Assembly (NCBI GenBank): GCA_003022385.1
Contig: PYGV01000013.1
Location: 1-44,906, forward strand
DNA: 44,906 bases
From: a filamentous cyanobacterium CCP3
GTDB taxonomy: Bacteria > Cyanobacteriota > Cyanobacteriia > Phormidesmidales > Phormidesmidaceae
Direction of reading: 5' to 3'
Position 1 is the stretch's first letter; each line of letters begins with the position of its first letter. Of this stretch, positions 41,939 through 44,906 are shown piece after piece. Position numbers and translations under genes: made by a program. The notes beneath the pieces are model-generated. The model saw only the letters and a list, made by a program, of their open reading frames with translations. It did not search any database and was not told the origin of the DNA.

Positions 41939-41955
41939 ACGCGCTAAAAGCTGTA

Positions 41956-41990
41956 GAGCCCCGGATTCTCAGAGAATCCGGGGCTCTTTT
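41956..41990 (+). terminator. Strong intrinsic terminator of coxBAC
   Basis: GAGCCCCGGATTCTC (41956-41970) is complementary to the following GAGAATCCGGGGCTC, giving a long GC-rich stem, followed by TTTTGT. It begins 18 bases after the coxC stop. Confidence 0.9.
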
Positions 41991-42033: not shown

Positions 42034-43203
42034 CTATTTCTCTAGAGCCGTAAAGCGCTCTTTGGGAATTACCCCATGAATGCCCTTGACGATATCTACT
42101 ACCTGAGACACCTCAAAGTCGATATCGGCACTGCCGTAGAGCAGCGCATCGGCTTTGGTCAACCCGTACTTCTCGTTCATGATCCGCAGGTACTCGCGCA
42201 CCGACTTCTTCATCGCTTCGTTGAGGTCAACATCGAGGCCAACGGCAATCCAGGCGTCTTCAGTTTCCCCCATGGGCGCGGGTAGATCCATATCTTTGTG
42301 GAGAACCAGCTCAAAGGTGGGGGTCAGCGAGCATTCGATCGCAGTCAGTGCCACCTCGCCATTGCCCTGGGCGCAGTGGGGATCGCCGGAGTAAAACAGC
42401 GCCCCCGGCACCTGCACCGGCAGGTACAGGCTGCTGCCCCGGCCCAAGTGCTTGATGTCAACGTTGCCGCCGTACAGACCGGGAGGCACCGAGTTGACAG
42501 AGTCTTCTGGGTCAGCAGGCACGACGCCCATCAGGCCCATGAAGGGCTTCAGCGGAATCTCTAGATCGGGTAAGCCATTGGATGGCCTGAAGATACCAAT
42601 CTCTTTCTCGGCATCAATAGGAATGATTTTGGTGTAGATCGGGGCGTCGTTTTCGGGATATTCCCCTGGCAGTGAGCCCCTACCGTGGCGGTTGGAGATG
42701 ACGCCGTAGGGGACGCGGTACTCGATGTCGATGGTTTTGATTTCGAGCACATCGCCGGGTTCGGCGTCTTCAACGTAGATGGGCCCGGTGATGACGTGGG
42801 GACCAGGCCCTGATTTGGGCACCGTGCCTTTAATGGTGATCTGATCGGGCAGAATGTCGTCGGCTTTGATGCCCCCGCCGGTTAAGAACTCAACGGTGTC
42901 GCCCTGGTCGGCCAGAATGCCCTCGTGGGAAACGGTTTCCATGCGAATGCGATCGCCCGATTTGACCGTCAGAATCGGCTCGCTGTCGGGCTTAAACAGC
43001 TCACCCCAGATCACGTTGCCGGGTACCGACTTGACCTCATAGGTCTCGACCTGGGCGGTAGCGGGGGCAAACCACCCCGACCAGGCCGTTGCCACCAGCA
43101 AACACACACCGACTCCACTGACGAGCTGTAGCAGCCGCTTTGACGATCTCAGGGACGGCTGCCGCTTGATGCGCTTGAACAATTTCATAGACTTAACGAC
43201 CAT
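42034..43203 (-). CDS. Exported acetamidase/formamidase family protein
   Basis: A 389-residue amidohydrolase of the FmdA/AmdA family, which releases ammonia from formamide or acetamide. A basic N terminus and hydrophobic stretch ending ATAQ (cleavage near residue 51) give a signal peptide, so the enzyme is predicted outside the cytoplasm. Family motifs include GDRIRMETVSHEG, GPIYVEDAEPGDVLEI, PLKPFMGLMGVVPA, PPGLYGGNVDIKHLGRGSSL, and FYSGDPHCAQGNGEVALTAI. Starts: ATG 43203 or ATG 43188 (MKLFKR). A perfect GTA-N8-TAC NtcA-type site is centred about 55 bases upstream of ATG 43203. Adjacent gene upstream is a FAD-SLH protein on the same strand. Confidence 0.88.
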   Translation of the reverse strand: MVVKSMKLFKRIKRQPSLRSSKRLLQLVSGVGVCLLVATAWSGWFAPATAQVETYEVKSVPGNVIWGELFKPDSEPILTVKSGDRIRMETVSHEGILADQGDTVEFLTGGGIKADDILPDQITIKGTVPKSGPGPHVITGPIYVEDAEPGDVLEIKTIDIEYRVPYGVISNRHGRGSLPGEYPENDAPIYTKIIPIDAEKEIGIFRPSNGLPDLEIPLKPFMGLMGVVPADPEDSVNSVPPGLYGGNVDIKHLGRGSSLYLPVQVPGALFYSGDPHCAQGNGEVALTAIECSLTPTFELVLHKDMDLPAPMGETEDAWIAVGLDVDLNEAMKKSVREYLRIMNEKYGLTKADALLYGSADIDFEVSQVVDIVKGIHGVIPKERFTALEK

Positions 43204-43250
43204 AAAAACCTGACCAGAAACAAGTGAACAGGTTTTCAGGCGTTGGAATT

Positions 43251-43264
43251 GTAATGCGCATTAC
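43251..43264 (-). promoter_or_regulatory. NtcA-type binding site upstream of the amidase gene
   Basis: GTAATGCGCATTAC is a perfect 14-bp palindrome and an exact GTA-N8-TAC, the consensus for the cyanobacterial nitrogen regulator NtcA. It lies 48-61 bases before ATG 43203 of the acetamidase/formamidase gene. About 22 bases downstream the expected TAN3T -10 box is not well matched (TTCACT), so activation from the classic position is not certain. Location and product are consistent with nitrogen control. Confidence 0.6.
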
Positions 43265-43332: not shown

Positions 43333-44906
43333 CTAGAGTTGTAGCCGTCCCTTTAGCACTTCGTAGAGCACGCGGGAGAGTTCGCGGCGCTGTAGATTCT
43401 GGCGATCGATGGGAGTGCGGCCAAAGGCTTTGTCGTAGACCTCAGGCATGGCCCGCTTGACCAAAAACGACAGCTGTTCGCGGGTAATGGGGGTATCAGG
43501 AGCAAAGCGGCCTTTGCCAACTCCGGAGATCATGCCGTGGGCGTAGAGCGTTTCGATCGGCATGTAGGCCCAGTGCTTTCCTGGCAGCACATCGCTAAAG
43601 CTAGGCTGATCGGGCAGGGTGGTAGGCAGCTTGAGCGCGTTGACCAGGGCGGTGGCGACAACGGCACGGCTGACCGGGGCGTAGGGCTTGAAGCTCAGGC
43701 TTCTGGGATCGTCGCTGCGCACAATGGCCGCCGCCGCCAGCACCTGAATGGCTTCAAAGTCGGGGTCGTCGTGGCTGACGTCGTTGAACCAGAAGATGGG
43801 AATGCCGTTGCGGGCCATAAAGCCCTGAATCTTGCGGATGTGCTTTTCTTCGCTGGCCAACACCCGAGGCTCTAGCCCGGTCCAAACCGAGAATACCGCT
43901 AAAAACCCGCTAGCCTCACCGATCGCCCACTCCATTGGGTGCATGCGGTAGGCGGCATTGGTAATGTGGGTGGTGCCAATGCTCTTGGCCGACAGCACCA
44001 AACCATCGGTATCTCTGGGCACTAGCGACCCCAGCGGTAGGCTAAAGGGCAGAGCCACCACATCTTTACCCTTGGGGCTGACGTGGCCCTTGGCGTCGTT
44101 GCCGTGCAGATCGAGGTAGTGGTACTGGCCAATGCCCACCGAGTCGTCGAAGCAGCGGGCGCGCGCCTGGTCGGGGAAGAAGGTTTCGGCCACATCCTCG
44201 TGGCGAATGGTGGTGAGGGCAATGCCGCGTCGCGCTTCGCGGATGTAGGGTTCGAGAGCAATGCCGTCGTGAGTCCAGGTGAGGTCGCCGCGCGGTTTGA
44301 GGTCGGCGGCCCCATGGGTTTGCAGGTAGTGGACGTAGGCCTGGGTCCGCTGCCGCGCCCGCTGAATGTGCAGTTTGCGCTCGTCGCGGCTGACCCCCAC
44401 CAGCCGACCGGGGCGGTAGTCGTTGCCGCAGCAAAAGGCGCGGTTGGGCTCGCTAGAGGTGCCCCAGTTGAGCACCGCCACGTCGCCAGGGAGAACTTTT
44501 TTGTCGTGGCTGTGCGACCGGAGCAGCCGCCGATAGCGAAAGATGCCGAAGTCGCTGAAGAAATCCCACTTTTGCCATTTGTCGGGCTTAGCTTTTGTCC
44601 AGAAGTGGTGGGTGAATTCTTTCAGGCCAATCCAGCTCTCGGTTTCAAAGCCGCTGGGTTTACCGATCGCAACTCCCTTGCCCCGCGCCGTGTGCTCGAC
44701 CACCACATCGAAGGTAATCGACTGCTGGCACTGGGGCCGGGCATCCTCGGGTAGAATGGCTTCGCCAGTCTCGTGGCGGGCCTCCTGCCCCACTCGCGAA
44801 GGAATGTTGCCGACCTCCAGCAGGTCGCCCAGATCGGTGGCCTCGACGGTGACTTTGGCGCTGACGGTAAAGGTGTGGCCTGTCTGCGCATCGCGAAAGA
44901 TGACCC
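43333..44906 (-). CDS. FAD-dependent oxidoreductase fused to S-layer homology sequence (5' end cut off)
   Basis: The frame is open from the window edge (44906) to the stop at 43333, about 523 residues, so the true start and the Rossmann FAD site lie outside. Visible N-terminal text contains VEATDLGDLLEVG, then GETGEAILPEDARPQ-like sequence, EPYIREARRGIALTT, DTDGLVLSAKSIGTTHITN and RMHPMEWAIGEASGFLA, as in FAD_oxidored (PF12831-type) proteins. From about 180 residues before the end, PSFSDVLPGKHWAYMPIETL then GMISGVGKGRFAPDTPITRE is a canonical S-layer homology repeat, preceded by a second, weaker one. SLH tethers proteins to the cell wall, so the enzyme is probably on the cell surface. Substrate unknown. 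Confidence 0.82.
   Translation of the reverse strand, partial: VIFRDAQTGHTFTVSAKVTVEATDLGDLLEVGNIPSRVGQEARHETGEAILPEDARPQCQQSITFDVVVEHTARGKGVAIGKPSGFETESWIGLKEFTHHFWTKAKPDKWQKWDFFSDFGIFRYRRLLRSHSHDKKVLPGDVAVLNWGTSSEPNRAFCCGNDYRPGRLVGVSRDERKLHIQRARQRTQAYVHYLQTHGAADLKPRGDLTWTHDGIALEPYIREARRGIALTTIRHEDVAETFFPDQARARCFDDSVGIGQYHYLDLHGNDAKGHVSPKGKDVVALPFSLPLGSLVPRDTDGLVLSAKSIGTTHITNAAYRMHPMEWAIGEASGFLAVFSVWTGLEPRVLASEEKHIRKIQGFMARNGIPIFWFNDVSHDDPDFEAIQVLAAAAIVRSDDPRSLSFKPYAPVSRAVVATALVNALKLPTTLPDQPSFSDVLPGKHWAYMPIETLYAHGMISGVGKGRFAPDTPITREQLSFLVKRAMPEVYDKAFGRTPIDRQNLQRRELSRVLYEVLKGRLQL

Follow-up and report, generated by a model that had tools for sequence, protein, structure and literature searches.

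The window, i.e., the whole stretch of DNA analyzed here (44,906 nucleotides, contig PYGV01000013.1 of the filamentous cyanobacterium CCP3, a relative of Nodosilinea), carries a gene of the FmdA_AmdA family whose product begins with a signal peptide, and 5' of this gene lies GTAATGCGCATTAC, an exact GTA-N8-TAC palindrome. An earlier note on this DNA had pointed to the palindrome as a binding site of the nitrogen regulator NtcA; its sequence, coordinates, and spacing have all been confirmed, and it lies 48-61 bases 5' of the first in-frame ATG (43203). The features of the locus, all on the minus strand, are as follows.

42034..43203 (-): gene for the FmdA_AmdA-family hydrolase, an ORF of 389 aa; first in-frame ATG 43203, likely start ATG 43188
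42037..43053 (-): mature enzyme domain with the acetamidase/formamidase fold, assigned by AlphaFold and Foldseek
43054..43188 (-): predicted signal peptide, MKLFKRIKRQ...FAPATA followed by Q, with a basic n-region, a KD15 peak of 2.33, and an AxA site
43216 (-): predicted transcription start, placed 41.5 bases from the box centre (43257.5) according to class II NtcA geometry (PMC3898017)
43223..43228 (-): TTCACT, a -10-like hexamer (TTN3T) separated from the NtcA box by exactly 22 bases, from ortholog promoters
43223..43238 (-): conserved 16-base block TGAAAACCTGTTCACT (TGAAAA-N2-TGTTCACT), overlapping the -10 and strongly conserved at most alignment columns
43251..43264 (-): predicted NtcA box GTAATGCGCATTAC, an exact match to GTA-N8-TAC; GTA and TAC are kept in orthologs and N8 is variable

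The start codon was reconsidered by using orthologs. Among the Nodosilinea relatives, L008, L051, and L053 have a stop codon in frame before codon 6, and in others the frame is shifted there; therefore, the start shared by the relatives is codon 6, giving MKLFKRIK at ATG 43188, which is probably the true start rather than 43203. The distance of 48-61 bases given in the earlier note is thus correct when counted from ATG 43203, while it becomes 63-76 bases from the ATG supported by orthologs.

Upstream of the amidase gene, positions 43333-44904 (-) encode an FAD-dependent oxidoreductase fused to an S-layer homology domain, a conserved upstream neighbour in Nodosilinea. Because this neighbour is on the same strand, the box serves no divergent gene. 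In Nodosilinea the amidase gene is flanked on one side by the FAD-oxidoreductase/SLH gene and on the other by a cytochrome oxidase cluster that converges on it. In the window, the gap between the oxidase and amidase genes contains a near-perfect hairpin with 16-base arms followed by TTTT (41955-41987), which is likely a terminator.

When judged on the window alone, the box is not beyond chance: GTAN8TAC was observed 7 times against 3.2 expected, and the window contains six perfect 14-base palindromes. Abundance of this kind is what would be expected if GTAATGCGCATTAC had arisen by chance or served some unrelated dimeric regulator as its operator. Across the genome, the pattern GTAN8TAC-N20-24-TAN3T gave 56 matches and its reversed control 82; since there was no enrichment, no list of the NtcA regulon has been drawn for this genome. 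The box is significant because it is conserved among orthologs.

Besides Nodosilinea, about ten cyanobacterial genera have orthologs of the amidase. All six bases of GTA-N8-TAC were found in 17 of the 21 ortholog promoters and five in three more (at least five in 20/21), and the spacing from the box to TTCACT is exactly 22 bases in 20 of the 21; L014 has a weaker box and a 23-base spacing. The N8 part drifts between promoters while GTA and TAC stay. Among the promoters outside Nodosilinea, GTA, TAC, and GTTCACT carry 1.2-2 bits of information, and the middle of N8 and most of the spacer carry little. Depending on the ortholog, about 60 to 400 bases separate the box from the start of the alignment, and therefore the promoter has been kept as a unit. 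With GTA and TAC held at a fixed spacing and the inner palindrome lost, chance is ruled out by the conservation and another dimeric regulator by the lost symmetry, so that either origin of the palindrome is highly improbable.

A blind scan for the composite element was done with the pattern GTANNNNNNNNTACANNNNNNNNNNNNNNAANNNNGTTCACT against 388 genomes of the class. Matches were found in 19 genomes, one in each (the reversed control pattern gave four matches), and in all 19 loci an amidase ortholog is located directly downstream. The element is absent in 7 of the 27 other orthologs (L005, L013, L023, L025, L026, L028, and L045). The first of these, L005, is the ortholog of Nodosilinea LEGE 06152 (95% identity) and begins at a contig edge; its upstream sequence (1-135) differs, possibly by an insertion, and has no NtcA box.

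The canonical class II layout consists of GTAN8TAC at -41.5 and a -10 box of TAN3T (PMC3898017). Like the class II promoters of glnA, urtA, nirA, and ntcB, the amidase promoter has GTA-N8-TAC, a 22-base spacer, a -10-like hexamer, and a predicted centre at -41.5. Unlike them, its predicted -10 is TTCACT, i.e., TTN3T rather than TAN3T, with the 22-base spacing conserved, and an additional conserved TGAAAA-N2-TG precedes it. The hexamer is TTCACT in 20 of the 21 ortholog promoters and TTGACT in L027. Deviations such as TTN3T have been listed for nitrate genes (PMC9430850), and a second case, GTAGCCTGCTATAC-N23-TTAAGT, was found 5' of this genome's own ntcA gene (C508:9188-9230); TTCACT may therefore fit as a -10 box. 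A profile search showed a single clear NtcA in the genome (L077, 385 bits against the NtcA_cyano cut-off of 245); its whole length aligns with the NtcA of 8h3v, and also with that of 3la2, and it is near-identical. The regulatory claim is thereby raised from a motif match to a predicted conserved class II NtcA promoter, and the NtcA control proposed in the earlier note appears well supported by phylogenetic footprinting, the class II geometry, and the near-identical NtcA. No link between NtcA and an acetamidase was found in our literature search.

The ortholog alignment shows tighter conservation of TGAAAA-N2-TGTTCACT than the -10 box of an NtcA promoter requires. From genus to genus, GTTCACT and the AA at -7/-6 vary hardly or not at all, less than the NtcA half-sites do and less than TAN3T would need, and TGAAAACCTGTTCACT occurs nowhere else in the genome within two mismatches. 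Both observations could be accommodated by a two-input promoter, in which NtcA activates and TGAAAA-N2-TGTTCACT is read by another factor or by a special sigma factor, and expression would need nitrogen shortage and a second signal. We consider this somewhat unlikely: no symmetrical operator is kept throughout, a block shared with no other gene of the genome gives no sign of a regulon, and strict constraint on a core promoter is the simpler explanation. An inverted-repeat reading of the block (TGAA-N6-TTCA) was rejected, since its symmetry is broken in part of Nodosilinea. The over-conserved block at the -10 poses a concrete, small question about NtcA promoters.

The signal peptide described in the earlier note is borne out by its conservation in orthologs. 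Judged by simple hydropathy rather than by SignalP, the cyanobacterial orthologs of full length that were inspected start with a basic n-region and a hydrophobic stretch (15-residue peak 1.8-2.6), and most of them also have an AxA-like site. Similar N-termini are present in relatives from Bacillota, Acidobacteriota, Acinetobacter, and Melainabacteria; no such segment was seen in the stretch inspected for the short forms L060-L065 and for L042, L046, and L070. The amidase is thus probably exported, as its N-terminus and those of its orthologs suggest. A lipoprotein reading was discarded, since Cys34 sits in VGVC and there is no lipobox. The same genome has a second FmdA_AmdA paralog, L001 (G000:C519:28602-29720), which scores higher and whose N-terminus is hydrophobic as well; no NtcA box was found for it in the stretch scanned, a weak negative, as that stretch was set from the L001 alignment start.

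The earlier note had regarded a location outside the cytoplasm as unusual for such enzymes, and this part was not supported. In a tree of 28 rows, 25 members from several phyla look exported, and the closest solved relative has been deposited as a Tat-signal protein. A branch of this tree separates the three cytoplasmic forms from the exported ones; with long branches meeting near the root, the grouping is read without a direction of change. Since the exported look extends across the clade and to the paralog, predicted export is a property of the clade and no oddity of this gene.

The protein scores 109.8 bits with Pfam FmdA_AmdA (PF03069; gathering cut-off 27), and its closest solved relatives by sequence are 3b9t, 2ii1, 3tkk, 5ubu, and 2f4l. 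The AlphaFold model of the mature chain has a pLDDT of 93.6, and its top Foldseek matches are 3b9t, 3tkk, 2ii1, 2f4l, 5ubu, and 2wkn (E-values of 1e-18 to 1e-32), significant E-values going to structures of the family only. The residues common to the sampled family include GGN.D and GD.H..QG.GE; in the mature chain, D224, H226, and E233, which are conserved across that sample, are all intact. The protein resembles 3b9t, an exported FmdA_AmdA member of Methylobacillus flagellatus, in fold, family score, conserved motifs, and export signal; it differs in sequence, with about 27% identity in the structural alignment, and in size, 3b9t being the larger protein with 484 aa, and the CCP3 amidase lacks a clear twin-arginine motif, whereas 3b9t was deposited as a Tat-signal protein. 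From family and modelled fold, release of ammonia from amides is plausible.

The score with the formamidase FmdA equivalog NF045496 is 71.6 bits, far below the curated cut-off of 500, and therefore neither formamide nor acetamide need be the substrate. The exported protein might instead hydrolyse some other amide, cyclic or N-acyl, and would then free nitrogen as one result among others. Besides the low equivalog score, this reading draws on a (+)-gamma-lactamase within the family (PMC5353710; structure 2wkn) and on the common neighbour of the gene, which is a zinc-type CDF transporter and not an amide transporter. Predicted NtcA control speaks for a nitrogen role, and the family-conserved residues, including the three named above, are intact; we regard a substrate other than simple amides as unlikely.

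We consider it likely that this is a nitrogen-scavenging gene, activated by NtcA from a class II promoter and encoding an exported hydrolase which releases ammonium from a small amide. Under nitrogen shortage, with 2-oxoglutarate rising, NtcA would bind GTAATGCGCATTAC, centred about 41.5 bases 5' of the transcription start, and recruit RNA polymerase at the TTCACT -10-like box, i.e., class II activation. Translation of the transcript would give a precursor destined for the periplasm. There the folded FmdA_AmdA-type hydrolase would free ammonium from a small amide, and the ammonium could be taken up, e.g., by the Amt transporters of the genome (three homologs). In Arthrospira, FmdA rises under nitrogen limitation (PMC4509649). 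The fmdA of Arthrospira PCC 8005 is likened here by family, as a cyanobacterial acetamidase/formamidase-family gene, and by this analogy its induction supports a nitrogen role for the family in cyanobacteria.

The NtcA site kept across about ten genera suggests that the amidase is made to scavenge amide nitrogen outside the cytoplasm, and that these filamentous cyanobacteria may use such nitrogen when starved. The NtcA regulon predicted for cyanobacteria of the Leptolyngbya type gains a probably exported hydrolase of organic nitrogen, and the footprint is strong enough for direct testing.

In 9 of the 17 loci outside Nodosilinea, a CDF transporter gene is located 3' of the amidase ortholog on the same strand, with gaps from 23 bases up. 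The spacing is 30-150 bases in several loci, which suggests co-transcription and perhaps a metal link. A more elaborate proposal is that the clade of exported amidases, often CDF-adjacent, is controlled by a gene-specific dual input, in which the NtcA class II site is fused to a 16-base -10 element read by a second factor, possibly coupling the supply of metal in the periplasm to nitrogen scavenging; we regard it as doubtful. The CDF genes are of the zinc type (ZitB-like) in L012 (3678-4922), L022 (3688-4776), L026 (3663-4391), and six other loci, and an exonuclease III gene is present further downstream in four loci.
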